From Qipengyuania gaetbuli (GTDB taxonomy: Bacteria; Pseudomonadota; Alphaproteobacteria; Sphingomonadales; Sphingomonadaceae): 64,000 nucleotides of DNA. The translations under genes were made by a program, and so were the position numbers. The DNA lies in NCBI RefSeq assembly GCF_020524765.1, contig NZ_JAIVLR010000001.1:806001-870000 (forward strand), read 5' to 3'. This document shows positions 49,391 through 64,000 of the stretch, one piece after another. The notes under the pieces were generated by a model. It was given only the letters and a program-made list of their open reading frames with translations, did no database searches and was not told the origin of the DNA. Numbering within the stretch: the stretch's first letter is position 1; each line of letters opens with the position of its first letter.

Positions 49391-50253
49391 GCGGTCGCCT
49401 CCGCCCTGATACGCATGGACACGCGCCACCGCTCGCCCGCCTGGAGAATGCGCATGCCGTTTTCAGGCACGGGGTTATTGAAGACGTCCGTCGCATGACT
49501 GACCGGTTCGACGCAGAAAAAGCCTTCGCCTGCAGGCACATAGACGGTCGTGAAGCCAAGATCCTCGCTAGGGTCGATCACAGCCCGCAAAGCGCGTTCG
49601 GGCCATTCGATTTCGAGCGGCCCCTGCCTGCCGGTATAGACGGTGTCGACCTCGCGGCTAGCGACCGGCCTGCCATCCCACCAGTCGGCCGCCTCCTGCC
49701 TTTGCCGGAGGTCACGCGGGAGGCAGTCCGGGCCGACCTCCCATTCGCCGCGATGGAGGCCGCGGTAGATCGTTTGTCCGGTGCGCGGGAAATAGGGATG
49801 GAAGCCCAGCCCTGCAGGCATCGGGTCGGCTGACAGGTTCTCCAAGTCGAGCGAGGTGAGCAGGCCTTCCTTGTCGAGTACGAAACCGGCGGACGCGCGA
49901 TAGGGCCAAGGCCATGCCCCTCCCGCATTCTCGTGCACCAGAACTGCCCTATCCTGCGAAAGTTCGGCCACCGACCAGGCGGCGAGCCAGCCGAAGCCGT
50001 GGAGGACCGGTTCTCCGACCGCTGCCGGGTGGTTCGGTTCAAGACGTATTTCGCGACCTGCGAATGCGAAGCGCGATCCGGTGATGCGGTTGGAAAACGG
50101 TACGAGAGGGAAGCAGCTGCTGTCCAGCACCCCCTCGCCCGCCGCAGGGCGCAAGATGTCCAGCCCATGCCAGGAAAGGCCCGCGATGCTCCCGCCCCGG
50201 TACGGAGCGAGTTCGAGCCTGTAGTCCCCAGCCGCGATCCCGATGCAGTCCAT
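49387..50253 (-). CDS. aldose 1-epimerase family protein (GalM-like)
   Basis: 288 residues from the ATG at 50253; an upstream in-frame extension runs into tRNA-Ser and was rejected. Motifs are GLSWHGLDILRP, FPLVPFSNRI, HGFGWLAAWSV (catalytic His region), GLGFHPYFPR and FCVEPVSHATD with the probable catalytic Glu. It should interconvert alpha and beta anomers of galactose or a related aldose, which fits its place at the end of the gal cluster although it is on the other strand. The subgroup may act on a different hexose. Confidence 0.85.
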   Translation of the reverse strand: MDCIGIAAGDYRLELAPYRGGSIAGLSWHGLDILRPAAGEGVLDSSCFPLVPFSNRITGSRFAFAGREIRLEPNHPAAVGEPVLHGFGWLAAWSVAELSQDRAVLVHENAGGAWPWPYRASAGFVLDKEGLLTSLDLENLSADPMPAGLGFHPYFPRTGQTIYRGLHRGEWEVGPDCLPRDLRQRQEAADWWDGRPVASREVDTVYTGRQGPLEIEWPERALRAVIDPSEDLGFTTVYVPAGEGFFCVEPVSHATDVFNNPVPENGMRILQAGERWRVSMRIRAEATA

Positions 50254-50367
50254 GGCGCTCTTATAGAACCGAAACAGCTGGGCGAAAGCGGCAGGAGGCG
50301 ATCTGACGCCAAACGCCTGTCGCTTGCCAGCGAACAGCAGTTTCGTTCGGTTCTGGAAGAAGGTGAC

Positions 50368-50457
<90 letters not shown>

Positions 50458-50618
50458 GCATGTCGGGTGCGCTTATCGGGCCATGGGCCCCGGTCGAAGC
50501 GAGCGCGCCCGTTAGCCCACGCCGCGGGCATTGCCAAGCCCTTTCGCGCGCGAAATCGGGGGACGAGAGCCGTACTGCGCTTGTGCCGGGGCATATCGAT
50601 CCCATATTCTCTCCAGAC

Positions 50619-50999
50619 ATGGACAGGACTTTGTTTTTCTCTCCGCAGGCAGGCCGCACGCTCGAGGCGCCCCGCCGTATCCGCACCCGCTTCGCGATCG
50701 GTGACGTCGTCCGGCACAAGGTGTTCGATTTCAGGGGCGTGATCTTCGATATCGACCCCGTCTTCGCCAATAGCGAGGAATGGTATTCGGCGATTCCCGA
50801 AGACATAAGGCCGGATCGCAACCAGCCCTTCTACCACCTGCTCGCCGAAAGCGACGAGAGCGATTACGTCGCCTACGTCAGCCAGCAGAACCTCATCGGC
50901 GATGCGTTGGCGGGGCCCGTCTCGCATCCTGACGTGCACCAGTATTTCCAGCATTTCGAACACGGGCGCTACCGGATGCGCCGCAAGCTCACCCACTAG
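50619..50999 (+). CDS. hspQ: heat shock protein HspQ (YccV-like)
   Basis: 126 residues from the ATG at 50619. The YccV/HspQ domain is clear: RFAIGDVVRHKVFDFRGVI, EEWYSAIPED, RPDRNQPFYHLLAE and YVAYVSQQNLI. In enterobacteria HspQ is a small heat-shock protein and specificity factor for Lon, formerly described as hemimethylated-DNA binding. It lies alone between two tRNA-Ser genes. Confidence 0.92.
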   Translation: MDRTLFFSPQAGRTLEAPRRIRTRFAIGDVVRHKVFDFRGVIFDIDPVFANSEEWYSAIPEDIRPDRNQPFYHLLAESDESDYVAYVSQQNLIGDALAGPVSHPDVHQYFQHFEHGRYRMRRKLTH

Positions 51000-51066
51000 G
51001 ACTGCAGCCGTCTTGCGCTGCTTGGGCAACCCCGCTAGAGGCGCGCCCTTGCCCTAGCCGGCATGC

Positions 51067-51157
51067 GGAGCAGTGGCCGAGTGGTCGAAGGCGCACGCCT
51101 GGAAAGTGTGTATACGGTAACCCCGTATCGAGGGTTCGAATCCCTCCTGCTCCGCCA
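51067..51157 (+). tRNA. tRNA-Ser (anticodon GGA), integration site of the element
   Basis: GGAGCAG pairs with CTGCTCC and GCCA follows. The anticodon loop CTGGAAA reads GGA, and the variable arm TATACGGTAACCCCGTAT marks a class II tRNA. A tyrosine integrase gene begins 171 bp downstream in the same direction, the usual arrangement for insertion into a tRNA 3' end. Confidence 0.96.
51130..51157 (+). other. probable attL core in the tRNA-Ser 3' end
   Basis: Elements with P4-type integrases usually recombine in the T-arm and acceptor part of a tRNA, leaving that part duplicated at the far end. The right end of this element is outside the window, so the core length cannot be measured and the position is inferred. 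Confidence 0.45.
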
Positions 51158-51293
51158 TTTACCTTCAACGCCAGCCAACACCAACTCGCATGAACCAACA
51201 CGGAAGCCAGCATTTCTGCGGGTTTCCGAGCTTCGGAGTTGAGTCGTGCTGCCTCATGTATATTCGTTTAGGTCCGCTCAACTGGTAACTAGC

Positions 51294-51307
51294 GCGGTAG
51301 CTACCGC
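51294..51307. promoter_or_regulatory. 14-bp perfect palindrome upstream of the integrase
   Basis: GCGGTAGCTACCGC is fully symmetric and ends 20 bp before the integrase ATG, with AAGGA between. It is probably an operator for the integrase or for a directional regulator such as the AlpA-like protein; a possible -10 (TATATT) lies at about 51258. The remaining 51158-51293 holds no gene. Confidence 0.5.
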
Positions 51308-51327
51308 CTAACCAAAAGGACCAACGA

Positions 51328-52548
51328 ATGCCCCTTATTGACCGCCAGCTTCGCGCCCTACCCGATGGCTTTCATGCCGATGGGGCGAATGCGCTCTATT
51401 TCCGCGCCCAAGGCGAATCCCGCTCATGGGTCTACCGCAAGACCCTCCATGGCAAGCGCCAGACGCTCGCTATCGGCAAGTATCCCGTTGTCAGCCTCAA
51501 GGAAGCCCGCGCCAAGGCGTTCGCATTGGAGCAGGCGGTAGAGGCCGGACGAGATCCGTTCCTTGAGCGCAAGTTGCAGGGCAGCATTCCGACATTCGAG
51601 CAGGCGGCGCGGCTGGTCCATGCCGAGGTGGTGGCTGGCAATTCCAACGGCAAGCACAACGCGCAATGGATTACGACCCTCGAAACCTATGCCTTCCCGA
51701 CCATCGGCCACAAGCCCGTCAATGCGGTTACGCAGGCCGATGTGAGGCGGGTGCTGGCCCCCATCTGGACCGCCAAGCACTCGACCGCCACGCGGGTTCT
51801 GCAACGCATCACGCGGGTCATGGATTACGCCGTCGGCTGCGGATACTGCGAAACCGAATTGCCCGTCCGAGCCATCCGGCGCGGGCTGCCGAAGGTGAAG
51901 CGCGATGTGAAGCACCATGCTGCGCTGCCTTGGCCGGAAATGCCTGCCTTCTGGACCGACCTTGCCAAGCGCGAAGGACAAGGCGCTGCCGCCCTGCGCT
52001 TCGCTATCCTTACCGCTGCGCGCTCCGGCGAGGTTCGCGGCATGACATGGGGCGAGGTAGATATGGACGCTGCCCTCTGGTCCATTCCCGCCGAACGCAT
52101 GAAGGCCCGCCGCGACCACAACGTGCCCTTGAACGAGGCGGCGCTGGCAGAACTGCGATTAGCCAAGCTGCATTACCGCAATTTCGTCGCCAACAAGGAG
52201 CCGCCCGCCGATGCGCTGGTATTCCCAAGCGCCAAGGCTGGCGGGCCGCTTTCCGACATGACGCTGACGGCCGTGCTGCGCCGGATGAAGCGCGGCGAGC
52301 TGACCGCGCATGGCTTCCGGTCGTCGTTCCGCGATTGGGTTTCGGAGGATACGAACTTTCCAAGCGATGTGGCCGAAGCGGCGCTGGCACATACCGTTTC
52401 CAACGCTGTTGAGGCTGCATACAGGCGCGGCGATTTGCTGGCCAAGAGGCGGCAGTTGATGGGCGCATGGAACGCCTATCTGGAGGGCAGAGGTTCTCTA
52501 GTTATCAACATGACCACCCTCTCGGCGGAGGGCCAAAATCGGGCCTAA
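51328..52548 (+). CDS. tyrosine integrase, P4 type with DUF4102 arm-binding domain
   Basis: 406 residues. The N-terminal DUF4102-type arm-binding domain (LPDGFHADGANALYFR, LAIGKYPVVSLKEARAKA) is followed by a core-binding helical domain and the catalytic domain. Catalytic residues are R232 (TAARSGEVRGM), K259, H328 with R331 (HGFRSSFRDW), H355 (LAHTVSNAVE) and nucleophile Y365 (AAYRRGD). It should catalyse integration into and excision from the neighbouring tRNA-Ser. All catalytic residues are present, so it is probably functional. Confidence 0.96.
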   Translation: MPLIDRQLRALPDGFHADGANALYFRAQGESRSWVYRKTLHGKRQTLAIGKYPVVSLKEARAKAFALEQAVEAGRDPFLERKLQGSIPTFEQAARLVHAEVVAGNSNGKHNAQWITTLETYAFPTIGHKPVNAVTQADVRRVLAPIWTAKHSTATRVLQRITRVMDYAVGCGYCETELPVRAIRRGLPKVKRDVKHHAALPWPEMPAFWTDLAKREGQGAAALRFAILTAARSGEVRGMTWGEVDMDAALWSIPAERMKARRDHNVPLNEAALAELRLAKLHYRNFVANKEPPADALVFPSAKAGGPLSDMTLTAVLRRMKRGELTAHGFRSSFRDWVSEDTNFPSDVAEAALAHTVSNAVEAAYRRGDLLAKRRQLMGAWNAYLEGRGSLVINMTTLSAEGQNRA

Positions 52549-52682
52549 CTGGCTGGCAAATCGGCGCAATCAGGCAACAGCCAAAACGCTACATCTGGAA
52601 GATGAGATTTATTCGGGCGGCTGTTGCTGACCGCTGCGATGTGCATAGAATGGGTGGCCTTGTTACAAACAACGAGGCCTGT

Positions 52683-52919
52683 ATGACGACGCAGAACACT
52701 GCTGCTGAAGCCCCTGACAGCCCCCGCCCGCGCTGGGTCAGCCGCGACCAAGCCGCCGCTGCCTTTGGCGTTCACCCCATGACGCTAGACCGCTGGATTA
52801 AGGCTGGCGATATGCCTGCCTACAAGATGGGCGGGCGCGTGTTCGTCCCCTCATGGGCGGTCTTTCCCGAAGAGGTCTTACCCCAGCCGGAGGCCGCGCC
52901 GAGCGCCACCGCAGCCTAG
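52683..52919 (+). CDS. AlpA/excisionase-like helix-turn-helix protein
   Basis: 78 residues from the ATG at 52683 with GAGG five bases upstream; an ATG at 52650 is an alternative. WVSRDQAAAAFGVHPMTLDRWIKAGDMPAYKMGGRVFVP, in particular VHPMTLDRWIKAG, is a MerR/AlpA-type winged helix. In P4-like elements such proteins activate integrase or act as excision factors. Position directly behind the integrase agrees. No other domain; the tail is Pro/Ala-rich. Confidence 0.75.
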   Translation: MTTQNTAAEAPDSPRPRWVSRDQAAAAFGVHPMTLDRWIKAGDMPAYKMGGRVFVPSWAVFPEEVLPQPEAAPSATAA

Positions 52920-52949
52920 TTGCCAACCGCTTTCTGAAGGAGGCCACCC

Positions 52950-53618
52950 ATGGCCTTTGATAACGAAGGCGGCGGGCCAACTACGACCCCGCCGCCCCCA
53001 AACGCCACGCAAATAGCGCCCGCCGATGATACGGCAAACCCTAGCAGGAAGCTAGAGTTTGACCTGCTCGATGAAGCGTTCGCTGGCGATATGCTGACGG
53101 GGGCCGACTTCGCCAAATTGAGCGAGCTAGGCGTAGATGCCATGGCGCTTGCGCGGATAGGCCAGAGCGCGCCCATGCGCGTGATTTACGCCGAGCCAGC
53201 GGGCCGTGGCCTATACCGCCCGTCATTTGCCGGAAGCCGCTGCCTGCAAGTTGCGGTCATGGAAGCCGCCGAGGTTTCGCCCTTCGCCGCCGACAGCCCC
53301 GATACGGTGGAAATCAACCGCGTGGCGAACCTCATTGCCATCCCGCTTGCCAAGCCGGAACGATACCGTTTGCGCAAGGCCGGAGCCTTCGCGCTTGGCC
53401 TGCCGCTGGTCTGGTCCGGACGGCCCGTTGATGTGGTCGAGACGCCGCTGGAATGGCTTCGCGCCGGAGGCAACGCGCTCTGCATTCTGGATTGGACGCC
53501 AAGCTGGCGGTTCAGGATGCTCATGGACGCCTCCGAACTCCGCCCCACAACCGAATTTCTGCGCATCCAGTTGCGGTCTGCCCTGACCCGCGACGGCCTG
53601 CCGATTGCCAAGGATTGA
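52950..53618 (+). CDS. hypothetical protein of the replication module
   Basis: 222 residues from the ATG at 52950, with AAGGAGG upstream. No family recognised. An N-terminal Pro/Asn-rich linker (about 10-30) precedes a mixed alpha/beta body with LLDEAFAGDMLTGADFAKL, ISLIAIPL-like strands (VANLIAIPLAKPERYRL) and a C-terminal PSWRFRMLMDASEL. It ends 4 bp before the DUF3987 gene and is probably co-expressed with it, so a role in replication initiation or control is inferred from position. Confidence 0.65.
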   Translation: MAFDNEGGGPTTTPPPPNATQIAPADDTANPSRKLEFDLLDEAFAGDMLTGADFAKLSELGVDAMALARIGQSAPMRVIYAEPAGRGLYRPSFAGSRCLQVAVMEAAEVSPFAADSPDTVEINRVANLIAIPLAKPERYRLRKAGAFALGLPLVWSGRPVDVVETPLEWLRAGGNALCILDWTPSWRFRMLMDASELRPTTEFLRIQLRSALTRDGLPIAKD

Positions 53619-53622
53619 ACCA

Positions 53623-55197
53623 ATGACGAGCGCATACGAGCCGGAATCGGGAGCGACGATTACCACCCTTGCGGACCTCAAGGAACGCGAGGCGCGGGTG
53701 GCTGGCGTCGGCAGCCCCACGCCCCTGTTCGCATCCGTGCCCAAGGGCAAGGAATACCCCGCCGACGCGCTTGGCCCCATCATGGGACCAGCCGCCCGTG
53801 CCATCGCAGCGTCGGTGCAATGCCCTCTGGCCATGGCGGCAAATGCGGTTCTATCGGCGGCATCGCTGGCAGCCCAACTGCGGGCTAATATCGAAATCCC
53901 CATCTTGGGTGGCAAAGCCAACCCGCTGTCGCTGTTCCTGCTGACCGTTGCCGCCAGCGGCGAACGCAAGAGCACGGCAGATGCGGCCTCGTTGGCAGCG
54001 GTAGATACCCTCAGCGAAAAGCTGGCCGAGGAGGCCGCGCCGGAAAAGCTGCGCTTCGAGAACCTGACCGCCGCCCGCAATGCGCACGTTGCCCACCTGA
54101 AGCGGAACCACTCCGACAACGAGGCCGAACTGGCAAGGCAACTTGAGGCCCTGGGGCCTGCGCCCCAGCCGCCGCTGTTCGCCCGCTTGGTTTCCAAGAC
54201 CGACCCTACATGGGAAGGCATCTACAACATCTTGAAGATTGGCTACCCGACGCACGGCATCATGGCCGACGATGCTGCGACCTTCCTTGGCGGCTATGCC
54301 ATGCGGGCCGAAAACAAGTCAGCTACGACCAGCAACCTGTGTCGCATTTGGGACGGCGGCTCGATTGACCGCATTCGCGGCGGCAGCGGCGACGGGGCCG
54401 AGGTTCTGCTGAACCGAAGGATGGCCATGCACCTCATGGTGCAGAGCAAGGTCGCCACCGAGTTCATCGTTGACCCCGTTTTCCGCGAGCAGGGTTTGCT
54501 TGCCCGCTTCCTTATCACCCAGCCGGAAAGCCTCGTCGGCAGCCGCTTCCACAATGACGCATACCGCGATGCCGTGCGCCAAGGGCAGGACGCCATCAAC
54601 AAGTTCCATGCGGCCATCTACCAAACCCTATCCGGTCCGGTGGATTGGCGCGACCCGCAGAACCGCAACATGGGGCCGAACTTCCGCCTGCTGCGCCTCA
54701 CACCCGATGCCGTTGCCGCATTTGAAATGCAGACCAACGCCATCGAAGAACGGATGCGCGAAGGCGGCGATTGCGACGACATACGGCCCTTCGCCGGACG
54801 CCTGACCCAACAGGCCATTCGCATCGCTGGCATCATGACCATCATCGAAAACCCGCAAGCCGAGGAGGTTGACGAGGAAACGCTGCTCTCCGCGATGGTC
54901 CTTTGCGACTTCTACCTCAGCGAAACGAAGCGGCTCTACAACCTTGCCGAGATCGAGGCCGAACTGAAGCAGGCCGACGCCTTGCTGAAACGCCTGCAAC
55001 AGCACGCCCGCGAGCGGCGCGAGGTCGCCCTGCCCGAGATCTACCAGAAGAAATACGCGGGACTGAAGAACGCAACCGACGCCCGCCGAGTGGTCGGGGT
55101 GCTGGAAAAGCACGGTTGGCTGGTCCCCATCAAGGGAGGGGTCGAGGTCGAGGGAACCCATTACAACGAAGCATGGAGCATCCGTGATGACGTTTGA
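53623..55197 (+). CDS. DUF3987 (YfjI-like) replication-associated protein
   Basis: 524 residues from the ATG at 53623. The DUF3987 core is clear: CPLAMAANAVLSAASLAAQ, a P-loop-like SG-E-R-K-S-T at about 112-118 after LFLLTVAA, and GIMADDAATFLGGYAM as the Walker B-like strand. The C-terminus (LPEIYQKKYAGLKNATDARRVVGVLEKHGW) looks like a winged helix. DUF3987 proteins accompany primases and helicases on plasmids, prophages and islands. No separate primase or helicase gene is seen, so this may be the element's own initiator. The 3' end overlaps the iteron gene by 11 bp. Confidence 0.8.
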   Translation: MTSAYEPESGATITTLADLKEREARVAGVGSPTPLFASVPKGKEYPADALGPIMGPAARAIAASVQCPLAMAANAVLSAASLAAQLRANIEIPILGGKANPLSLFLLTVAASGERKSTADAASLAAVDTLSEKLAEEAAPEKLRFENLTAARNAHVAHLKRNHSDNEAELARQLEALGPAPQPPLFARLVSKTDPTWEGIYNILKIGYPTHGIMADDAATFLGGYAMRAENKSATTSNLCRIWDGGSIDRIRGGSGDGAEVLLNRRMAMHLMVQSKVATEFIVDPVFREQGLLARFLITQPESLVGSRFHNDAYRDAVRQGQDAINKFHAAIYQTLSGPVDWRDPQNRNMGPNFRLLRLTPDAVAAFEMQTNAIEERMREGGDCDDIRPFAGRLTQQAIRIAGIMTIIENPQAEEVDEETLLSAMVLCDFYLSETKRLYNLAEIEAELKQADALLKRLQQHARERREVALPEIYQKKYAGLKNATDARRVVGVLEKHGWLVPIKGGVEVEGTHYNEAWSIRDDV

Positions 55198-55825
55198 CCC
55201 AGCCGAACGCCTCCGCCGCCTGCGCATGGAAAAGGCCAAGCAAGCCGAACTAGGCGACGGCGAGATTAGCCGGATTAGCCAGATTAGCTCGCCTGCGCTT
55301 GGCGATAGCGGGAACCACGCGGAAGCTGACTTTAGCCGGATTAGCCAGATTAGCTCGCACCCTGTTGCTGACAGCGGGCCGGAACAGGCTGGCGAGATTA
55401 GCCGGATTAGCCAGATTAGCCGCCAACCTATTCCCAAATCGGGCGGATTCGGGGGAGAGAAAGAGACGAATCAGTCTGTCTCTCGAGCTAATGTAGCTAA
55501 TCCGGCTAATCCGCAGGCCGATGGGAATAGAGAGTCAGAATCGTCTATTCTCGGAGCTAATGTAGCTAATCCGGCTAATCCGGAAGCAGAGGCCCAGACC
55601 GAGCCGAAAGCGCCATCCGCTGACGATGAGCGCGTTGCTATCCGCTCCCTCCTCGCGTCGGCATATCTCAACTTCGGCATCATCGTTCAGGTCAGCCATG
55701 GACGCATCAAGCTGTCCGCCATGGCCGAACCGCCAGCCGATGTCGTTGACCTGCTGATTGCCGAAAAGCCCGCCATCATCCGCGTGCTTGGTTCTAACGG
55801 GCGCAGCCCTGCGAGGCGCGACTGA
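55187..55825 (+). CDS. hypothetical protein encoded across an iteron array
   Basis: 212 residues from the ATG at 55187 (GGAG eight bases upstream; a GTG directly before it is possible). The first third contains three SRISQIS repeats and the middle two ANVANPANP repeats; these are the forward and reverse readings of the same DNA heptamer repeats described separately, so the protein sequence seems shaped by the DNA. The C-terminal 70 residues (DDERVAIRSLLASAYLNFGI and VVDLLIAEKPAIIRVLG) look like a small folded domain similar to TubC/NRPS-docking-like or DNA-binding ends on DUF3987-linked proteins. Function unknown. Confidence 0.6.
   Translation: MTFDPAERLRRLRMEKAKQAELGDGEISRISQISSPALGDSGNHAEADFSRISQISSHPVADSGPEQAGEISRISQISRQPIPKSGGFGGEKETNQSVSRANVANPANPQADGNRESESSILGANVANPANPEAEAQTEPKAPSADDERVAIRSLLASAYLNFGIIVQVSHGRIKLSAMAEPPADVVDLLIAEKPAIIRVLGSNGRSPARRD
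55264..55580. repeat. iteron-like array: five triplets of GATTAGC/GCTAATC
   Basis: Three triplets read GATTAGC on the plus strand at 55264, 55273, 55282; 55330 (degenerate, TTTAGC), 55339, 55348; and 55396, 55405, 55414. Two triplets read GCTAAT(G/C) at 55487, 55496, 55505 and 55556, 55565, 55574. Within each triplet the spacing is exactly 9 bp. The two orientation blocks face each other across about 65 bp. Such arrays usually bind a replication initiator. Confidence 0.85.
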
Positions 55826-55936
55826 TGGCCCCCGATACCACCCACCAGCGCCAAGGCCGCTGTGCGCCAATGACAGGCCGCACAGCGCCCCGCCGGATGC
55901 CCACTGCCCTACCCGCCAGCACCAAGGAGGCGACCC

Positions 55937-56350
55937 ATGCTTGAAGCCCATATTGCAGGCCGCGCCATCCGCGATGCCGAAATCAAGAAGGCTGCCAATG
56001 GCGGCTCACAATATGCCGTAGCGTTCATCGCAGTCAGCATGGGGAGCGCCGACGATGTGATTGTTCGCTGCCTTGGCTTTAAGCAAAACGCCGAGGCGGT
56101 TGCCTCAATCCGCAAGGGTCAGACGGTTAGCGCGCTAGGCAAGTTGGAACTGTCCATTTGGGATGCCGAAGGCGGCCCGCGAATAGGCGCAACCCTGCTG
56201 GCTACGAACATTCTCGCCGCCCGCACTGCCGGAGCGCGGAACAACCCGACCAGCCGAAAAGCCCCGCCCAAACGCGAGGAAGCGCAGCGGACCATGGACC
56301 GTGCCTATTCCAACCAGCCCCGCGAAAATGACCCGCCATGGAACCCGTAA
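55937..56350 (+). CDS. single-stranded DNA-binding protein-like (OB fold)
   Basis: 137 residues from the ATG at 55937, with AAGGAGG upstream. The pattern AGRAIRDAEIKKAANGGSQYAVAFIAVS, VIVRCLGFKQNAEAVAS, IRKGQTVSALGKLE and a final strand TLLATNI is that of a short SSB-type OB fold. A basic/polar linker and an acidic end with NDPPWNP could substitute for the DDIPF interaction tip. It would protect single strands during replication of the element. Distinct from the chromosomal SSB in sequence, so an element-borne copy. Confidence 0.7.
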   Translation: MLEAHIAGRAIRDAEIKKAANGGSQYAVAFIAVSMGSADDVIVRCLGFKQNAEAVASIRKGQTVSALGKLELSIWDAEGGPRIGATLLATNILAARTAGARNNPTSRKAPPKREEAQRTMDRAYSNQPRENDPPWNP

Positions 56351-56514
56351 GGCCATGCGGGGCCTGCACCAGCGGGAGGGGGGGCGGGGGGGGATCGACC
56401 GTTCGTATCGCAAAACGAGGAGCGGCCACCAGACTGCTTTTGAGGAGCAATGCCCTGTTTTTGCCTCCGAACGTTTAGCTGGGCTCCGGCCCGAAGAGGG
56501 GGCATTCTCGGCCC

Positions 56515-57018
56515 ATGGCAGGAAAAGTGACCAAATCCGGAACCGTGGCGGCCAAGCGCAAGGCGCTGGAAGCTGCGCAGGAACAACCGCTGGAGCCGCC
56601 GGAGGGCGTCAGGCTGACCAAGGCCGAGCGGCGCATCTTCGACCAGTTGGCGGAAGGGACGCTGGCGGAGGAGCGGACGCTTGCTCTAGCGCATCTTCTG
56701 GCCCGCTGCGCGCAGATGATGGAACGGGCCAAGGTATTTGAGCAGGCGGCCAAGAAGCAGCCGTTCGTCGTTGCGCAGTCAGGCGTTTATGCTGGCCAGC
56801 CCATTCCCAATCCGGCCATCAGCGCGAAGCTGGCGCTGGAACGGCAGATTGGAAGCAGCTTGCGGCAGGCGGGGCTAACGCTTCATGCGGCGGCGCATCG
56901 GGCGGCGACCAACAACCCGCATTCCCGCGCTGAGCAGGAGGCCAAGGAGGCGGCCAAGGAAACGGCTCCTTACGCTCACCTCCTCGGCGGCAACGTGAAG
57001 CCGATCAAGCGAGCGTAA
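56515..57018 (+). CDS. small terminase subunit, P27 type
   Basis: 167 residues. The helical sequence with an N-terminal basic region (MAGKVTKSGTVAAKRKALE), LTKAERRIFDQLAEG, and the C-terminal NPAISAKLALERQIGSSLRQAGLTLHAAAHR segment, in particular RQIGSSLRQAGLT, fits P27-family small terminases, which recognise the packaging site. No large terminase gene follows. An isolated terS is a hallmark of phage satellites that redirect helper packaging. The stop codon lies inside the left 19-bp inverted repeat. Confidence 0.6.
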   Translation: MAGKVTKSGTVAAKRKALEAAQEQPLEPPEGVRLTKAERRIFDQLAEGTLAEERTLALAHLLARCAQMMERAKVFEQAAKKQPFVVAQSGVYAGQPIPNPAISAKLALERQIGSSLRQAGLTLHAAAHRAATNNPHSRAEQEAKEAAKETAPYAHLLGGNVKPIKRA

Positions 57019-57033
57019 CGCTTAGCTGTAACG
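57015..57033. repeat. left 19-bp inverted repeat flanking the zinc-finger gene
   Basis: The bases GTAACGCTTAGCTGTAACG are the exact reverse complement of a sequence found twice, overlapping, at 57746-57764 and 57759-57777. It starts inside the terS stop codon and ends 2 bp before the end of the zinc-finger gene. Confidence 0.85.
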
Positions 57034-57034
57034 G

Positions 57035-57730
57035 CTAGTATCCCCGCTCCTCCCTACGCTTGGCGATGGCCGCTTCGACATCGGCCCGCCATGCCGCGCT
57101 GAGCTTCTCCGCCTCGGAGTCAAGGATGGGCGGGTAGGCTCGCTCGAGGGCATAGAACAGTTCCTTGCGGGTCTCAGGGCTTGGGTTCATTTCGCCAATG
57201 ACGGTGCCCTTTATTTGTTGCAGGTGCTTCTTTTCCATGCCGCGCCTGAATTCCGCATTGCGGGCTTCCTTGATGCCAGCATCCAGTCTGTCTGCCTGTT
57301 TCATGAGATAATCGTGGGCCGCAAAGAAGCCGAGGCGTTCAGCGTTGTCGGCATCAAAGCGAATTTCTTGCTCAAGGCTGGCTCCAATCCATCCCGCGAG
57401 GGTGTCAGGGCCAAAGGTTTCCACCGCCCATGCAATGTCATCCGCGAGCTTGTTCAGCTTGCGCTTCTCCGGCCCCTTGCGGAGGTCGGCTGCAATGCGC
57501 AGCGTAACGCCTGTGGGCGTGACAGGGGCAGGCGTGGGCCGCTGGACAGGCGGGGCGGGCGCAGGGGCGGGCGCTGGCTTAGGCTTGGGAGGCGCGCTGG
57601 CCTTGGGCTTGGCCTTTCCGCCCTGCCGATAGAGGGCCACGCGACAGGCGGGCGAGCAGGTCTTGGCGTCGGAACGCAGGGCGGTAAATGTTACACCGCA
57701 GTTGTTACAGATAAGTTCGGGCATTGGCAT
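57035..57730 (-). CDS. zinc-finger protein of unknown function
   Basis: 231 residues on the opposite strand to its neighbours (M1 at 57730, or M3 at 57724). The N-terminus holds a zinc-finger-like C8-x2-C11 and C25-x3-C29 set (LICNNCGVTF, TCSPACR), followed by a Pro/Ala/Lys-rich linker of about 35 residues and a helical domain of about 150 residues (KRKLNKLADDIAWAVETFG and GMEKKHLQQIKG). I do not recognise the helical part. The gene is bounded by perfect 19-bp inverted repeats, three tandem 13-bp copies of which occupy its promoter, suggesting that it binds them. Confidence 0.65.
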   Translation of the reverse strand: MPMPELICNNCGVTFTALRSDAKTCSPACRVALYRQGGKAKPKASAPPKPKPAPAPAPAPPVQRPTPAPVTPTGVTLRIAADLRKGPEKRKLNKLADDIAWAVETFGPDTLAGWIGASLEQEIRFDADNAERLGFFAAHDYLMKQADRLDAGIKEARNAEFRRGMEKKHLQQIKGTVIGEMNPSPETRKELFYALERAYPPILDSEAEKLSAAWRADVEAAIAKRREERGY

Positions 57731-57741
57731 CCTGTTGACGT

Positions 57742-57780
57742 TAAGCGTTACAGCTAAGCGTTACAGCTAAGCGTTACAGA
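57742..57780. repeat. three tandem 13-bp repeats upstream of the zinc-finger gene
   Basis: TAAGCGTTACAGC is repeated at 57742, 57755 and 57768 without gaps (the last copy ends in A). They lie 12-50 bp upstream of the start of the minus-strand zinc-finger gene and would cover its promoter. Two overlapping 19-mers inside match the single inverted copy past the end of the gene. Confidence 0.88.
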
Positions 57781-57839
57781 TTACCCGTAACAATGCGGGG
57801 TGCAACTCTTATGTTGCAGGACGATACGGGCCGATTTCG

Positions 57840-57880
57840 CCTAGCCGACTGGCCCGATGCGGGCGTAGCCACAGCGGAAA
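57840..57880 (-). pseudogene. 3' remnant of a zinc-ribbon gene
   Basis: On the minus strand the codons read RCGYARIGPVG and stop, matching RRGHARIGPIG and stop at the end of the zinc-ribbon gene at 60437-60658. Upstream of these about twelve codons the similarity ends, so only the last part of a second copy remains. The rest of 57781-57962 holds a piece related to the intergenic repeats and no gene. Confidence 0.5.
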
Positions 57881-57962
57881 TGGACTGACCAATTAGAATT
57901 GCCCACAAAAGCGGTCATTCCGCTAACGACCCGATAGCTGATATTAGAGAACGGACATTTTT

Positions 57963-58973
57963 CTACTTTGCACCGAGACTTCGGAGGGTCTTTTGCAACC
58001 CCTCCACCACTAGCGCAAGCCGCGCATAGTCCAATGTATCCGGCAGATCGGATTCCTTATGATAGTGCGGGTTCCTGAAGATTGCAGTGTCCGTGACCAT
58101 GATGGCGGGAATGCCCTGCTGAGAATAGCTCCAATGGTCTGACCAGTCGATGCCTTGCATCAGAGTGGGGGCAGTGCCCCCGACCGAAGGGATGGTGGCG
58201 TGGGTCCGGAACTCACCAATCACTGTTTGCAGGAAATCTCTGGAAGTAAGGTCACCGACAAACGCGATGAAGTTCCCGGTACTAGGATACCGGAGCGAAA
58301 GCGGGAATGGATAGTGCTGGCTGCCGGCTTCGGTCGAGAAATAGCCCATCGTTTCAAGCGATATCATACCGATCACCCGCTCGGGATTGTGGATCGAGCG
58401 GGCATGAACGAGGCTGCCCATTGCGTTGGTTTTGAAATAGGGCGGCTCTTCATTGGCGTAGAACACTAGCTTGACTTCAAGCTCTGCCTTTCCGTCGAGC
58501 GGCTTTAGTTCGCGCGCCAATTCGAGAAGTGCGGCCACGCCACTAGCATTGTCATCTGCGCCAGGTGATGCCCCAGCAGTGTCATAATGCGCGCCGACGA
58601 TGAGGATTGGTGCGTCATCGGTTTTTGCTGCCAATCGGACTAAAAGGTTATCGGCAGGAGTAAGCACTTCCTGCTTCTCTATGGCATAGCCATATCCTTC
58701 AAGTTCGCCCTCAATATAGGCGAGGCTTCGCTTGATCGTGCTGGTGCTTTGAAGGTTGCGCGAAGTGACCGCGAGTTCGCGAACATGGGTTTCGAGACGA
58801 TTTTCGAGTTCGATATCCTCAGGCGCTTGTGCCCCGCCCAAATAGGACTCTCCCGGAGTGCTGGTGGCCCACATGAATAAGCCGAACAGTAATACGATAA
58901 TGATCATTATGATCGCAAAGAGAATACGGCGATTTTTCCTGCCGGTTTGCTCTGATGCAGCGATATAGTTCAT
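57963..58973 (-). CDS. M28 family zinc aminopeptidase, membrane-anchored
   Basis: 336 residues from the ATG at 58973. One transmembrane helix at about 18-36 anchors a periplasmic peptidase. Zinc ligands and catalytic residues of the M28 family are visible: H129 and D131 (GAHYDT), D140/D141 (GADDNASG), E175/E176 (YANEEPP), the Glu of SLETMGY and the His of NPHYHKESD. It probably cleaves N-terminal residues from peptides. It is transcribed against the replication module, has lower GC than its neighbours and is probably cargo rather than a phage function. Confidence 0.88.
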   Translation of the reverse strand: MNYIAASEQTGRKNRRILFAIIMIIIVLLFGLFMWATSTPGESYLGGAQAPEDIELENRLETHVRELAVTSRNLQSTSTIKRSLAYIEGELEGYGYAIEKQEVLTPADNLLVRLAAKTDDAPILIVGAHYDTAGASPGADDNASGVAALLELARELKPLDGKAELEVKLVFYANEEPPYFKTNAMGSLVHARSIHNPERVIGMISLETMGYFSTEAGSQHYPFPLSLRYPSTGNFIAFVGDLTSRDFLQTVIGEFRTHATIPSVGGTAPTLMQGIDWSDHWSYSQQGIPAIMVTDTAIFRNPHYHKESDLPDTLDYARLALVVEGLQKTLRSLGAK

Positions 58974-59096
58974 TGTGATCCCATAATTGCTTTTGACGCG
59001 GAGAAATTGCAATCGTCCAATTGCGCACTCTGTTGAGTGCCACGCTAAGGCAAATGTTCATCAATGCGTGCAAAAAATGCTTGAACGTTCCGGCGT

Positions 59097-59185
59097 CCGC
59101 TTCCCACCCCATCTGACGACAGGTTCATCGAGTTGGCGATTTGCCATGAGCGGACTGGCAGCTAACGACCCGATTGCTAACGTTC
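59097..59185. repeat. intergenic repeat copy 1
   Basis: Contains CCCATCTGACGAC, a TTCATCGAGTTGGC segment, CCATGAGCGGA and GCTAACGACCCGATTGC, shared in order with copies at 59615 and 60015. It lies between the divergent M28 and small membrane genes. Confidence 0.7.
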
Positions 59186-59208
59186 CAACGTTCACATAGT
59201 ACTGCTGT

Positions 59209-59616
59209 ATGAAGATCTCAGATCGCCTCAAGCCTCATTTTTTCACCATAGCAGTTGCGACCGGATTGGCTTTGGCATGGGTTCTGAGCCCACTCGACTG
59301 GTTCGATGGTTTCGTGTTGTTTTTGCTCGGGTCTGTCGCAGGCGACTGGAACCGCCAGCTAAATCCAGTTGTCGATGGAACTGAGGGGCCCGTATTTCCT
59401 TGGGATGAGATGAATGCTGGCGACAAACTGGCCTATTTCCTTCCAGCTTTGGCGATCACAGTCTTTGGACTAATTTTCCTTGCGATGGCTATTCAGTTTT
59501 CACGGGTCGCCATAGACTGGACCAGCATCGGCGTTGCCATTTTCGTTGTCGTGCTGGGGCTCGGTCACGGCTACTGGAAGTGGCTTCATCGCTATCGCTC
59601 GGTTGATGGCAGCTAA
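59209..59616 (+). CDS. hypothetical membrane protein (cargo)
   Basis: 135 residues with about four hydrophobic segments (near 10-25, 30-45, 74-95 and 102-120) and a conserved-looking loop DWNRQLNPVVDGTEGPVFPW. No family recognised. The start ATG at 59209 directly follows copy 1 of the intergenic repeat and its stop is followed by copy 2. The composition is visibly more AT-rich than in the chromosome. It might partner the divergent peptidase or be independent. Confidence 0.6.
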   Translation: MKISDRLKPHFFTIAVATGLALAWVLSPLDWFDGFVLFLLGSVAGDWNRQLNPVVDGTEGPVFPWDEMNAGDKLAYFLPALAITVFGLIFLAMAIQFSRVAIDWTSIGVAIFVVVLGLGHGYWKWLHRYRSVDGS

Positions 59617-59697
59617 CCACCCATCTGACGACGGTTTCACCGAGTTGGCATAGTGTCAGGAGCGGAAGTTCGGCTAATGACCCGATTGCGGACATTT
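59615..59697. repeat. intergenic repeat copy 2
   Basis: Begins at the stop of the membrane protein gene: ACCACCCATCTGACGAC, TTTCACCGAGTTGGCAT, CAGGAGCGGA and GCTAATGACCCGATTGCGG in the same order as copies 1 and 3. Confidence 0.72.
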
Positions 59698-59737
59698 GGG
59701 TCATGAACCAAAAGCAGTTGGTCTAAGGAGCGCGACT

Positions 59738-60007
59738 TTGAAACCTCGTATAACGATCAGTCTCAGCGAAACCGGAGAGTTGCTGATTTTCCTCAACGAG
59801 GAGGGAAAGAGCGATCTGATGCGCGAACTTCAACGCCTCGACTTGCACTACGAGCACTTCCATCTTGGTGTGGAGGATTTGGGGGGGCTTGACCTTAGCG
59901 ATGTTCCCTATGACCCCAAGGACCAGATCGTGCGGTATGCGAAGGTTCTGTTCCGACCGGACGAGTGGGATCGCGAATACTACCCGCATGTTATGGAGAA
60001 GAACTAG
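59738..60007 (+). CDS. small protein, possible Imm32-like immunity protein
   Basis: 89 residues if translation starts at TTG 59738, which has a strong AAGGAG six bases upstream; an earlier in-frame TTG lies inside the repeat. The sequence MKPRITISLSETGELLIF, EEGKSDLMRELQRL and LGVEDLGGLDLSDVP resembles the Imm32 family associated with polymorphic toxins, but the match is from memory and weak. No toxin gene is adjacent. It is flanked by intergenic repeat copies 2 and 3. Confidence 0.45.
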   Translation: MKPRITISLSETGELLIFLNEEGKSDLMRELQRLDLHYEHFHLGVEDLGGLDLSDVPYDPKDQIVRYAKVLFRPDEWDREYYPHVMEKN

Positions 60008-60014
60008 CGTCCGG

Positions 60015-60096
60015 TAACCACCCAGTTCGTGACTGATTTTCCGAGCTAGAGATATGCCATAAGCGGGCCGGCTGGTACTACCCGATTGCGGCCATC
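60015..60096. repeat. intergenic repeat copy 3
   Basis: A more diverged copy: AACCACCCAGTTCGTGAC, TTTTCCGAGCTAGAG, GCCATAAGCGGGC and TACTACCCGATTGCGGCCAT. A shorter piece with CCGCTTCCCACCCC shared with copy 1 also follows the next gene at 60339-60352. Confidence 0.6.
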
Positions 60097-60150
60097 CCAT
60101 GGAAGTGTGATGGCTAAGAAGCGAGTAGAGCGACAGGAGTGAACCGCGCG

Positions 60151-60330
60151 ATGGTGGAACGAATTAATCGAGCAAGGCACATAATATTCCCCATTATCGC
60201 CGTAACAGGGTTGATTGCGTTGCGGGAAAGCACCGGCTTCAGCAGTTGGGTATTATTAATCCCAGTTTTGCTTACTACCTTTCTCCTCATCTCCGTGTGG
60301 GATCGGCTTACCGGTCGCCGCGACGGCTGA
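60151..60330 (+). CDS. small membrane protein (cargo)
   Basis: 59 residues from the ATG at 60151, with GGAG eleven bases upstream; a GTG at 60139 would add four residues. Two hydrophobic segments (ARHIIFPIIAVTGLIAL and SWVLLIPVLLTTFLLISVW) with basic ends suggest a membrane hairpin. No family recognised. Like the preceding cargo genes it follows an intergenic repeat. Confidence 0.45.
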   Translation: MVERINRARHIIFPIIAVTGLIALRESTGFSSWVLLIPVLLTTFLLISVWDRLTGRRDG

Positions 60331-60436
60331 ACTTCTTTCCGCTTCCCACCCCAAAAGTCGCCATTCAGGGCAAGCAGGAAGCCACCCAATACCGGACATG
60401 GCGGCGATAGCTTGAACAGCTTCCAACCAACCCCGC

Positions 60437-60658
60437 CTAGCCAATCGGCCCGATGCGCGCATGGCCACGGCGGCGGCATTGCAGGCATCGCATACGGACT
60501 TCTAGCTGCGCAATCTGCATCGGAAGCGAGCGGTTGAAGCACTGGTCGCGCAGGGCGGAGGCCTTGAGAATGACCACGCGGCCACAGGCGCATTCCACTT
60601 GGAGGTTTAGGCCCGCCTTCACGTAGTCGGCCACGGTATCGAGTCGCTTGCTTCCCAT
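60437..60658 (-). CDS. small zinc-ribbon protein
   Basis: 73 residues from the ATG at 60658. Two Cys pairs, C23/C25 (VECACGR) and C58/C61 (MRCLQCRRRGH), frame a helical middle (LRDQCFNRSLPMQIAQLE), a layout seen in small proteins of sphingomonad mobile regions that I cannot name. The basic RRRGHAR end suggests nucleic acid binding. A remnant of the same 3' end lies at 57840-57880. No strong ribosome binding site is visible. Confidence 0.55.
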   Translation of the reverse strand: MGSKRLDTVADYVKAGLNLQVECACGRVVILKASALRDQCFNRSLPMQIAQLEVRMRCLQCRRRGHARIGPIG

Positions 60659-60688
60659 GCAACGGCCAATGGAACAGGGCAAGAACAC

Positions 60689-61395
60689 GCGTCAATGGCT
60701 TGCCGAAAATTGCGCCGACTCGGATTTGCTAACTGCACGTCCGGATTCGGGTTTGGCGCAACCGTAAGTTTCGGGATTTGCCCGCGAATATATTTTCGCA
60801 GATTCATTTTGGGGCTTGTGCGCCGACAAACCCAAGCGTTTCCGGTGCGTCGCTGCGTTGCACCCGACTCATACACCTCGCAGGAATGGCGGTTTTGCGC
60901 GCTAAATCTTCATTCACCCTCTTGCGCCCGACTCCGCGCTGACCGACTATGGGTTGGTGAGGCAGCGATGCCGCACGCTGTGCCGGACCTGTGGGGAAAA
61001 AGGGGATAAGATTCTGCCTCGCCCTCATCGGACGGTGCTAAAGAGGATTTGGCAACAGTCGTGGGGTTCAAACTCAGGGCTGGGGGGGCACAGAAATCAC
61101 GCCCTGCGTGCCTCGTGTGCTTTGCGAAGCGGTCAGCGTCCGAATGCGGTCGGCCTAGCGAAGCAGTTGGCCCCTTTCACAAGGGCTAACCAGCGAGGCT
61201 GTCGCCCCCCTGCCATCCTTCTACGCTTAGCGCGCACGCAGCTTCAAGCGCATTGTTTGCTTGACACCCCCCAATGCGACGAACTGGTCGCTGGAACTGG
61301 CGGTTTTCTGCGCCCCAAGTCTTTAGGAAAACTAGCCTCGGTCTTCTGCGCGACCTCCGGCATCGTGGCGGCATATCCCCCGTGGAGGACTTGCC
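60689..61395. other. 707-bp stretch without a confident gene
   Basis: Open frames at 60695-61009 (+) and 61186-61416 (-) have no recognisable domain or good start. An AT-rich segment with ATATATTTTCGC lies at about 60788, a G7 run at about 61082, and TTGACA at 61261. The stretch may hold the promoter and leader of the coiled-coil gene run that begins at 61396. Confidence 0.4.
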
Positions 61396-62025
61396 GTGCG
61401 AACACTCAATGCCCACTGCGCCACCGCCATCAGCAAAACGAAGGCGGCCATTACCGCCCTCGATGCGGACTACGCGCAGGCACCAGCCCCCTTCAGCCCC
61501 CGTCCCAATGCCAGCGCAGGCGAGCTGCTCCTTGCCGCCAAGGATGCTGACGTTGACCCGCTGGCGATCGTCAACCTCAACCGTGCGCGGCTCAAGCGCA
61601 GGCTGAAGGAGGCCCGCGCCGAACTGGTTACGGCGAAGGAGCGGCTGGCCGACCTTGAACTTGCTGTCCGTTGTCTACGCACCAACCGGAAGCCCGATGG
61701 CCTGCCGCCCGATCTCGCGGCGGCGGTGCGAACCGTGAAGGCTGCCAGCGCGGCAGGCGTCCTCAATGCCAGCCAAGTTGCCGCGCAGATGGAAGGGCCG
61801 CTCAAGGTTGCCCGCAAGCGGCTGGATGCGAACAGGCTTCGGCAACGGGCGCTGGTGGCAACTGCGCTGGTGGCGGCATCGAACCAAAGCGCGCTCTACC
61901 TCGGACGCTGGCCCACCTTCAAAGGGCTTGCCTCCAAGAAGGCCGAGCAAACGGAAACCCTCAAGCGCGCCCGCAACAAGCTGAACGCAGCGGCCAAGGC
62001 TGCGCTGCGCAACGTGGAGGCATGA
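61396..62025 (+). CDS. hypothetical coiled-coil protein (structural-type)
   Basis: 209 residues starting with GTG at 61396, with GGAGG seven bases upstream. The segment LNRARLKRRLKEARAELVTAKERLADLELAV, in particular RLKEARAELVTAKERLADLE, is a clear coiled coil; the C-terminal third is Ala/Lys-rich helical. Family unknown. It opens a run of overlapping genes (ATGA junction with the next) whose composition is typical of phage morphogenesis or tail-assembly proteins, but no specific function can be assigned. Confidence 0.6.
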   Translation: MRTLNAHCATAISKTKAAITALDADYAQAPAPFSPRPNASAGELLLAAKDADVDPLAIVNLNRARLKRRLKEARAELVTAKERLADLELAVRCLRTNRKPDGLPPDLAAAVRTVKAASAAGVLNASQVAAQMEGPLKVARKRLDANRLRQRALVATALVAASNQSALYLGRWPTFKGLASKKAEQTETLKRARNKLNAAAKAALRNVEA

Positions 62026-62492
62026 GCATGGAACTGGAAACCCGACTGGCCCAGCTTGAAGCAACCGTCATGAGCCTAGCCGATGCAGTTGCCAGCAAGA
62101 GCAGCGGCAGCGCGGTTGCAGACCGCGAGGCGCGGCAGGGCTTGGAAGCCATCCGTAACGAGGTTGCCGAGTTACGCTTAGCCAAGGACGCTGGCGAAAC
62201 CCGCGTCAAGGAACTGGCCGACAGCGCCGCCAATGCTGCCGTCAGCCGCGTCATGCGGGTTCTGCCGAAGCAAGTTGCCGAAATGGTCTTTGAGCCGATT
62301 ACCGACGACATGACGCAGATGCAGGCCGACCAGAAGCGCCTGTCCGGCACGCTGACAGCCAAGATTGAGGGCGTTGCTGCCGAAGCTGGCGCAAGCGCGC
62401 TGGCCGCCAAGAACTCAGCCTCAGCCCAGGCTCAAGCCGCCGCCGATCACCTTGTCGCGGCTGCCTTTCAATTCACCCACGGAGACGCCTGA
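62022..62492 (+). CDS. hypothetical coiled-coil protein
   Basis: 156 residues from the ATG at 62022, which overlaps the previous stop (ATGA); ATG 62028 is an alternative. It begins with a heptad pattern (METRLAQLEATVMSLADAV-like: LETRLAQLEATVMSLADAV) and continues with REARQGLEAIRNEVAELRLAKD. Ala and Gln are abundant in the second half. No family recognised. It ends in a TGATG junction with the next gene. Confidence 0.58.
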   Translation: MSMELETRLAQLEATVMSLADAVASKSSGSAVADREARQGLEAIRNEVAELRLAKDAGETRVKELADSAANAAVSRVMRVLPKQVAEMVFEPITDDMTQMQADQKRLSGTLTAKIEGVAAEAGASALAAKNSASAQAQAAADHLVAAAFQFTHGDA

Positions 62493-62920
62493 TGGCAGAA
62501 CGCAGCACCAAAGACTTAGCCGCCGCCCGCATTGACGCAGCCATTGGCAAGAAGGCTGCCGAAGCCGCCGAACGCAGCGCCGCAACCGCGCAGACCGTCA
62601 ACGTCCTGTTTGCCGAACTGGTGGAAATGGGCGTTTGCAAGCGCGGCGGGCGCAGCCTCGCAACGCTGGCGGCTGGCATTGAGCATGAGGTTGCCGAACG
62701 CACCCGCGATGCGGTGAACAAGCTGCTACCCAAGGGCGTCCGCAAGCTGACCGATGCAGACGCGCCGCCGCCGCTGCCGCTGGCAACGCACAAGGCGCTG
62801 CTGGGGGCCATTGCTGCCGAAACGATTGCTTACGCCGAGAAGGCCAAGAAGGCTGATGCGAAGCGGCGCAAGGACGAGGCCATCATTGCCAAGCGCGCTG
62901 CGCAGACGGGCGAAATGTGA
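62492..62920 (+). CDS. hypothetical protein, alanine-rich
   Basis: 142 residues from the ATG at 62492, sharing one base with the previous TGA. Helical throughout: IDAAIGKKAAEAAERSAATA at the start, AGIEHEVAERTRDAVNKLL in the middle and a basic coiled end (AEKAKKADAKRRKDEA). No motif recognised. Coupled on both sides by TGATG junctions, so it is made together with its neighbours. Confidence 0.57.
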   Translation: MAERSTKDLAAARIDAAIGKKAAEAAERSAATAQTVNVLFAELVEMGVCKRGGRSLATLAAGIEHEVAERTRDAVNKLLPKGVRKLTDADAPPPLPLATHKALLGAIAAETIAYAEKAKKADAKRRKDEAIIAKRAAQTGEM

Positions 62921-63799: not shown

Positions 63800-64000
63800 C
63801 CCGCACCATTCAAATCAACGTCGTTTCGACTGGCGATGCCGAAGCCCGCCGCCTGATTACCTCCATCAACGGTGCAACCCGCGCTTCTGCGCAGTGGGCG
63901 CGAGAGCAGCGCCTTCTGCGCGATGCAACGACCCAAACGGACCGCGCCATGGACAGGGCCGCCACCACGGCGCGAACCTACGGACAGGCCATCAATACGG
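63787..64000 (+). CDS. possible tail tape-measure-like protein (5' part only)
   Basis: The first 71 codons are open to the window edge. MADLTRTIQINVVSTGDA followed by repeated helical, Thr/Ala/Arg-rich sequence (ATTQTDRAMDRAATTART) resembles the N-termini of phage tape-measure and minor tail proteins, which begin with a short strand and continue as long coiled coil. The assignment is tentative because only the beginning is visible. Confidence 0.4.
   Translation, partial: MADLTRTIQINVVSTGDAEARRLITSINGATRASAQWAREQRLLRDATTQTDRAMDRAATTARTYGQAINT

Follow-up and report, generated by a model that had tools for sequence, protein, structure and literature searches.

Facing triplets of 9-bp-spaced repeats behind a DUF3987 gene are probably iterons of its MCM-like product and a likely replication origin of a small integrated element

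Introduction

In a 64,000-nt stretch of the Qipengyuania gaetbuli genome (contig NZ_JAIVLR010000001.1, positions 806,001 to 870,000, hereafter "the window"), fifteen short repeats in five groups of three are embedded in an open reading frame that begins within the end of a DUF3987 gene. The same DNA can be read as regularly spaced sites and as repeated peptides. This raises the question of which of the two is selected, and, if it is the DNA, which protein reads the sites and what they are used for. Here, we address this question by a comparison of DUF3987 loci from many genomes.

Results

The array and its surroundings in the window

The array consists of five triplets with an exact spacing of 9 bp, three on the plus strand followed by two on the minus strand, the two sets facing each other. 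The plus-strand triplets are located at 55264..55288 (core 55265-55288; GATTAGC three times with a 9-bp period), 55330..55354 (core 55331-55354; CTTTAGC, GATTAGC, GATTAGC), and 55396..55420 (core 55397-55420; GATTAGC three times). The minus-strand triplets, at 55487..55511 (core 55487-55510) and 55556..55580 (core 55556-55579), each comprise GATTAGC, GATTAGC, and CATTAGC. An earlier, sequence-only reading of this DNA had described fifteen heptamers; the five 9-bp triplets, three facing two, are confirmed. The units are not all identical, i.e. GATTAGC is exact in 12 of the 15, with CATTAGC in two and CTTTAGC in one. The hexamer ATTAGC is exact in 14 units, and the remaining one reads TTTAGC.

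The two-unit pattern GATTAGCNNGATTAGC (up to two mismatches) had 10 matches versus 0.31 expected, a number reached in none of 100 shuffles, and the pattern ATTAGCNNNATTAGC (up to one mismatch) had 10 matches versus 0.04 in shuffled windows. Across the 2.8-Mb genome assembly, the three-unit pattern with up to two mismatches was found at the five places in the window alone. With 15 units at 9 bp, the array shows the evenly spaced, repeated direct copies of a short site that are looked for in an iteron origin. The first heptamer follows the stop codon of the DUF3987 (PF13148) gene by 66 bp, in agreement with the earlier statement that the array lies directly behind a replication-type gene. The extra triplets of the window probably arose by 66- and 69-bp duplications, because Tandem Repeats Finder reports the plus-strand triplets as a 66-bp repeat with 2.5 copies.

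The surrounding genes have one direction and the order tRNA-Ser, integrase, excisionase-like HTH gene, an unknown gene, DUF3987, array ORF, SSB-like gene, and terminase-small-subunit-like gene. The tyrosine integrase gene (51328..52548, plus strand) adjoins tRNA-Ser 51067-51157, and the genes that follow on the plus strand encode the excisionase-like HTH_17 protein (52467..52919, true start probably downstream), the DUF3987 protein of 530 aa (53605..55197), a single-strand-binding-like protein (55937..56350; a weak assignment, with Pfam SSB at 0.0022, below the cut-off, and phrog_44 at 4e-5), and a terminase small subunit-like protein (56515..57018; likewise weak, with Terminase_4 at 1.5e-4, below the cut-off, and phrog_83 at 9.2e-6). 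This is the order of PICI/SaPI elements (integrase, excisionase-like gene, rep, ori 3′ of rep, terS), with a weak terS and the array itself in the place of the ori. Judged from its gene content, the locus looks like a small integrated satellite-type island. A second copy of the tRNA-Ser 3′ end outside tRNAs was found neither in the window nor in the genome; the att site may be short, decayed or different. Two tRNA-Ser genes, 50368-50457 and 51067-51157, lie on opposite strands 0.6 kb apart, the integrase gene following the second. At 57742-57779, close to the likely island's downstream end, there is a perfect tandem repeat of TAAGCGTTACAGC with 2.9 copies.

The DUF3987 protein of the window matches PF13148 with an E-value of 6.7e-71 (239.8 bits, cut-off 27). 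Its predicted structure resembles MCM helicases, with an AAA+ core of the MCM fold and a C-terminal winged helix. No MCM profile is among its Pfam matches, a profile search of the PDB sequences with DUF3987 returned Septin-6 alone (E 0.59), and the winged helix by itself gave weak generic PDB matches (best E 0.011). Scans of two collections, genome_contigs and viral_contigs, with the single DUF3987 sequence returned no relative, and an alignment was needed. Phages gave one weak partial match.

Arrays with a 9-bp period accompany DUF3987 genes in relatives

For the comparison, 80 of 341 confirmed loci from genome_contigs were kept and combined with 34 loci from viral_contigs, yielding 114 loci. 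A de novo scan for a 6-mer occurring three times at 9 bp (up to one mismatch) identified 239 arrays in these loci, versus 5 in one codon-shuffled copy. In the zone from −150 to +700 of the DUF3987 stop, 9-bp arrays were present in 86 of 115 loci including the window (152 arrays). Control periods in the same zone gave 0 arrays (12), 4 (15), 0 (8), 8 (10), 4 (7), and 9 (18). The density of period-9 arrays was 1.59 per kb in the zone versus 0.072 per kb outside, i.e. 22 times lower. An enlarged set comprised 206 loci whose downstream sequence extends for at least 300 bp, still including five rows more than 95% identical to earlier ones; 133 of them had a 9-bp array, and 73 had none by the de novo scan. 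Together with the period control, this shows arrays that adjoin the proposed initiator gene and are conserved in relatives, as looked for in an iteron origin.

The E. coli K-12 yfjI region contained no 9-bp triplet at up to one mismatch, and one at two mismatches, in intA. At the same stringency, no triplet was found beside DUF3987 in two Psychrobacter plasmids that carry a repM of their own. One of these plasmids carries an A/T-rich 9-bp repeat ahead of repM.

Two residues of the DUF3987 protein predict two bases of the sites

Arrays with a TMGC core (M = A or C) were found in the zone of 76 of 114 loci (in this layout set, L088 was dropped as a duplicate of L008). We calculated the mutual information between the DUF3987 alignment columns and the core xTMGC for the 76 loci, using the residue numbering of the window protein. 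Base M tracks residue 481, with a z-score of 36 versus 5.6 for the next column: Gln occurs with A in 42 loci and Arg with C in 27, so that 69 of 76 fit, with seven exceptions. Base x tracks residue 477 (z 16; neighbouring residue 476, z 10), which is Arg in 47 of the 50 loci with G, while other residues occur with T or A, and once with C. The codons for residues 477-481 of the window protein (P477 ... Q481) are at 55033..55047 on the plus strand; positions 477 and 481 covary with bases x and M, respectively. In the predicted model, the two residues sit on the helix preceding the usual recognition helix. Arg with G and Gln with A are textbook base preferences.

The covariation was also analysed on a tree that was built without the C-terminal part. 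Base M changes 21 times on this tree. In 10 independent, well-supported M pairs, Arg481 changed in the same way in 8.8 and in the opposite way in 0.0 on average (median p 0.004), and for x and Arg477, 6.4 of 7 independent pairs changed in the same way and none in the opposite way (median p 0.03). Among 989 tree-aware column-residue tests, residue 481 had net values of 9.4 (Gln) and 8.8 (Arg) of 10, and all other columns had values of 3.9 or less. In addition, Arg at residue 485 occurred with C at unit position 8 in seven of eight C-loci, suggesting that this residue may add a contact.

The simple code was then applied to loci that were not used for its derivation. Of 101 further loci that were fetched, 97 matched the profile; 37 were left after removal of five rows more than 95% identical to training rows and of 55 rows that scored below 300 bits. 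The test covered 24 of these 37, the other 13 lacking a TMGC array in the zone. The rule predicts the majority base of the array, i.e. G for Arg or Lys477 and otherwise not G, A for Gln481, and C for Arg481; Lys was included because of the training exception L080. Two rows with Asn or Lys481 were given no M prediction. The predictions were correct for x in 24 of 24 and for M in 19 of 22 cases (Fisher p 4e-7 and 0.002, respectively, both uncorrected for relatedness). Three arrays that are right by majority contain one deviating unit (L220, L230, and L166). The three misses for M are L153, which has a mixed array, L222, and L228. In the latter two as well as in the training locus L054, Ser477 together with Arg481 goes with ATAGC, making this a consistent exception to the simple code. 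Mixed arrays with Gln481 are found in L017 and L085 as well as in L153; Asn or His481 occurs with C in L049, L066, L056, L059, and the held-out L236, and Lys481 with A in L229. The exceptions for x are L080, L100, and L111.

The following cases were judged by eye. In distant subfamilies whose downstream bases differ (GTCAG, GTCAC, TTTAGG, and AATAGG), the first bases mostly follow the rule; L041, L165, L191, L207, L212, L215, L216, L218, L188, and L204 are unclear or do not fit. Paracoccus versutus pTAV4, with Arg, Gln and GTAGC, fits the code, as does L255, a circular Pseudomonas putida record of 19249 bp (NZ_CP043577.1), with Arg, Arg and GTCGC. L255 has a triplet with the predicted core at 10605-10630, downstream of DUF3987, and contains an integrase-domain gene; DUF3987 is the sole replication-type gene in PLSDB's gene table, which is incomplete. 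The GC skew of this 19.2-kb circle rises throughout and gives no origin signal.

Taken together, the tree-aware covariation and the held-out loci strongly support the DUF3987 protein as the reader of the iteron sites. A search for the binding protein had been proposed by the sequence-only reading, and the answer is very probably the upstream DUF3987 protein itself. The element also encodes an excisionase-like HTH protein and an integrase, and some arrays are found inside integrase genes, which would fit binding of the excisionase-like protein, or of an arm domain of the integrase, in excision. It is, however, DUF3987 residues 477 and 481 that predict the bases, in tree-aware analysis and out of sample and, by eye, mostly in the distant subfamilies too, so that we regard another binder as highly improbable.

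The sites are kept as DNA

All five triplets of the window are hosted by one ORF (55184..55825, plus strand; 213 aa, with a true start perhaps a few codons downstream). This ORF overlaps the last bases of the DUF3987 gene 53605-55197. SRISQIS and, from the inverted units, ANVANPANP repeats are indeed both read in its single frame, as the sequence-only reading had stated in concluding that replication sites and protein repeats are one object. An open frame that takes up all triplets in both orientations could indicate that the repeats are selected as functional peptides and that the regularity of the DNA is a consequence. Several results argue against this. The ORF has no match in Pfam, PHROGs or NCBIfam up to an E-value of 0.01, a word-based search of 5.8 billion proteins returned its own copy alone, and none of the array ORFs from 66 other loci matched it by BLASTP. 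Within ORFs that share one common C-terminal motif, the arrays occupy five of the six combinations of strand and frame (17 loci, 29 arrays), most commonly in plus frame 1 (16) and minus frame 0 (7). Frame counts based on the longest spanning ORF were set aside because some of these frames are probably spurious (e.g. L026 and L027). The triplet pattern (up to one mismatch) was found in two of 249 genomes from the same family, the window's own genome and one other (G129), in which two triplets flank the DUF3987 gene in frames other than that of the window; the downstream one reads ELAPLAPLAD, and the other lies close to the N-terminus of the DUF3987 frame and reads MDANPANPANW.

Codon usage is also informative. 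In arrays read as VA.VA.VA (77 peptides, some overlapping, from 60 loci), the Val codon is GTA in 89 of 96 cases with Gln481 and GTC in 124 of 126 cases with Arg481. GTG accounts for 46% of the valines in the same DUF3987 genes and occurs once in these arrays. The Val codons thus track residue 481, so that the choice of a silent base in one gene mirrors an amino acid encoded by a different gene. The sequence-only reading had named a kept peptide with synonymous changes that destroy the heptamers as the outcome that would contradict it; the relatives show the opposite, since the DNA sites persist, with silent codon positions tied to them, in spite of differences in frame and peptide. Since arrays of the same kind are also found inside integrase and primase genes (see below), selection for the peptides is hardly credible, and selection of the array sites as DNA is strongly supported by these comparisons. 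The "one object" thus holds for the DNA; the SRISQIS and ANVANPANP repeats look like a by-product, which the hosting ORF carries because the sites sit in coding DNA.

Sites inside integrase and primase genes

In twelve loci, the integrase frame, 2-5 kb upstream, contains a single triplet (L019, L022, L027, L028, L037, L044, L050, L061, L065, L068, L074, and L080). It is located in the same loop of the tyrosine integrase, before W-x-[IV]-PA-[SE]-RMK, and is read, for example, as ATSATSAT before WTIPASRMK. The identity of the integrase was confirmed by Pfam in the five loci examined. Examples of triplet positions are 2350-2371 (L019), 1608-1629 (L022), 3046-3067 (L028), 3064-3085 (L061), and 3543-3564 (L074). 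In L025, a triplet (5309-5330) lies in an upstream Toprim/DUF7146 primase-type gene, Toprim being identified by Pfam. In total, 24 upstream arrays were listed, and those other than the 12 in integrase genes are elsewhere or may be due to chance. The integrase gene of the window contains no triplet. In two loci (L027 3383-3408 and L068 8667-8748), the arrays of the element itself are accompanied by a second, different type of 9-bp array (TGACAGAA / TTTTGTCGG), giving the impression of two neighbouring origin systems.

Units mostly come in threes, and the spacing of paired arrays follows the helical repeat

Among the runs of three or more units, 128 of 132 have exactly three. Runs of two numbered 46 in the zone, versus about 21 expected from the density outside. 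In L080, eight GTAGC units at 9-bp spacing (7556-7631) were found, versus three in nearly all runs. The orders along the gene strand in the 76 loci were − + (36), + (23), − (5), ++ (4), −++ (4), +− (2), −−+ (1), and +++−− (1), the last, inward-facing order being that of the window alone. Opposed arrays were present in 44 of the 76 loci.

The start-to-start distance of the − + pairs (n = 41) was 37-38 bp in 11, 47-49 bp in 25, and 58 bp in three cases, with 28 and 71 bp found once each. Eleven new − + pairs had distances of 82, 49, 38, 38, 38, 47, 49, 59, 49, 38, and 49 bp and kept the phase of a 10.5-10.9-bp period (V-test p about 1e-5); the p-values for the layout are optimistic because the loci are related to one another. 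Since the arrays are phased on one face of the helix, a protein bound to duplex DNA is favoured. By construction, facing arrays are also inverted repeats, and their linkers match between arms in 43% of positions, compared with 36.7% when the arms are taken from different loci (38 pairs, p = 0.007), as might be expected if they formed a single-stranded hairpin of RNA or DNA, e.g. a regulatory stem or a rolling-circle origin. However, the stem would be interrupted at more than half of the linker positions, local duplication would account for the small excess, and a scan of 50000-64000 brought no Rfam family except tRNAs to the gathering score. Together with the phasing of the arms and the residue-base code, both of which point to duplex binding, this leaves a hairpin very improbable indeed.

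The AT content between paired arrays was 1.4% above the locus mean (n = 37 relatives, window excluded), and that of the flanks ranged from −3.2% to −0.5% within 200 bp and was +4.2% at 200-300 bp downstream (n = 37-38). An AT-rich unwinding region beside or between the iterons was therefore not seen in the paired relatives (n = 37-38, window excluded).

Discussion

The most probable explanation, to which we assign a probability of about 0.8 on the basis of comparative sequence analysis, is that the repeats are double-stranded DNA iterons for the winged helix of DUF3987 and that, taken together, they most likely serve a small integrated mobile element as its replication origin. DUF3987, a predicted MCM-like AAA+ helicase, would recognize groups of three xTMGC-type sites. 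Where such groups oppose each other on the same helix face, they would position two oppositely oriented helicase assemblies, and these would then open the DNA in both directions. Three units would hold half a hexamer, and each pair of opposed groups would load two helicases. We infer physical binding, hexamer loading on the triplets, DNA opening, and origin function; the assignment of the site as an origin draws, by analogy, on the layout and on the replicative-helicase nature of the protein. Several observations speak against an origin: the paired relatives show no AT-rich centre, the order in the window is inward-facing, the reverse of the commonest one, and 73 of the 206 loci have no array by the de novo scan.

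These observations leave some room for a different role of the same binding, in which DUF3987 would use the triplets as copy-number, incompatibility or autoregulatory sites (iteron handcuffing) and the DNA would be opened elsewhere. That no AT-rich segment lies between the arrays or within 200 bp is compatible with this role, as is the extra triplet inside the integrase gene of twelve loci, which is why such sites cannot be confined to one origin-like place. Yet the main arrays follow the helicase gene on its 3′ side rather than occupying its promoter. Many of them form inverted pairs in helical phase, an arrangement close to that of PICI origins, of which one was tested in E. coli according to PMC6092414. 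A purely regulatory role is thus unlikely, and an origin read by DUF3987 is the preferred interpretation.

A more far-reaching version is put forward tentatively, as a possibility that we would not yet call probable. DUF3987 proteins may represent a large class of MCM-like, self-sufficient initiator-helicases of bacterial mobile elements, with origin recognition by a short colinear code (477 to x, 481 to M, and perhaps 485 to the second base after GC). The triplet would be the landing site of half a hexamer, and the inverted phased pair would load two opposed helicases, similar to an MCM double hexamer. Origin identity might be switched by one residue together with the array, the sites being hidden in passenger coding DNA, even in the integrase gene.

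Iterons have precedents, also within coding DNA, and so do origins that lie 3′ of rep. In phage lambda, the iterons of the initiator in ori are inside the initiator's own gene O. The present sites are likewise in coding DNA, here that of the next gene and in relatives also of integrase or primase genes. The alpha protein of satellite phage P4 is a primase-helicase with a C-terminal winged helix that binds short iterons at two sites kilobases apart, ori and crr. The second triplet 2-5 kb upstream in 12 loci recalls crr/ori; helicase type and iteron sequence differ from P4, and the upstream triplet is here in the integrase gene. The SaPI origin has the same pri-rep-ori layout as in PICIs.

For PICIs, PMC6092414 describes an origin that directly follows rep on its 3′ side and contains an AT-rich region bordered by two sets of iterons, and reports that the rep-ori of EcCICFT073 was tested in E. 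coli. The present system resembles PICI/SaPI elements in having an integrase gene, an excisionase-like gene, a replication helicase gene, two opposed iteron sets immediately 3′ of it, and a terminase small subunit gene further on; it shares the opposed sets, but an AT-rich centre was not seen in 37 paired relatives. It also differs in that the helicase is DUF3987, which may be distinct from the SaPI/PICI Rep, that the triplets strictly have a 9-bp spacing, that the sites are inside coding DNA, and that the specificity is readable from two residues. In the Vibrio PLE satellite, the origin iterons are bound by the element's own initiator RepA_N (PMC7145576), which has no helicase activity and has its iterons in a noncoding region, in contrast to the coding DNA here.

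DUF3987 has been used as a primase/replication marker of Vibrio PICMI satellites (PMC10803314), and it has been described as a predicted helicase of mobile elements, with the suggestion that the WH domains of PrimQH fusions recognize origins (PMC5862659). The word iteron is absent from the main texts of these two papers, and no paper linking DUF3987 with iterons was found in the literature searched. As far as that literature shows, the new aspects are the DUF3987 iteron system, the rules for triplets and their phasing, the residue-base code, and the embedding of the sites in passenger genes.

A more general consequence is that DNA sites can leave repeated peptides, e.g. VANVASVAT or SRISQIS, as their shadows in small proteins. 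DUF3987 is a widespread family of "unknown function" and a marker of satellites; it now gains a probable DNA target, a probable role as an origin-recognizing helicase, and a two-residue rule that predicts the DNA it reads. Thereby, origin recognition, incompatibility, and specificity change of DUF3987 elements become directly testable.
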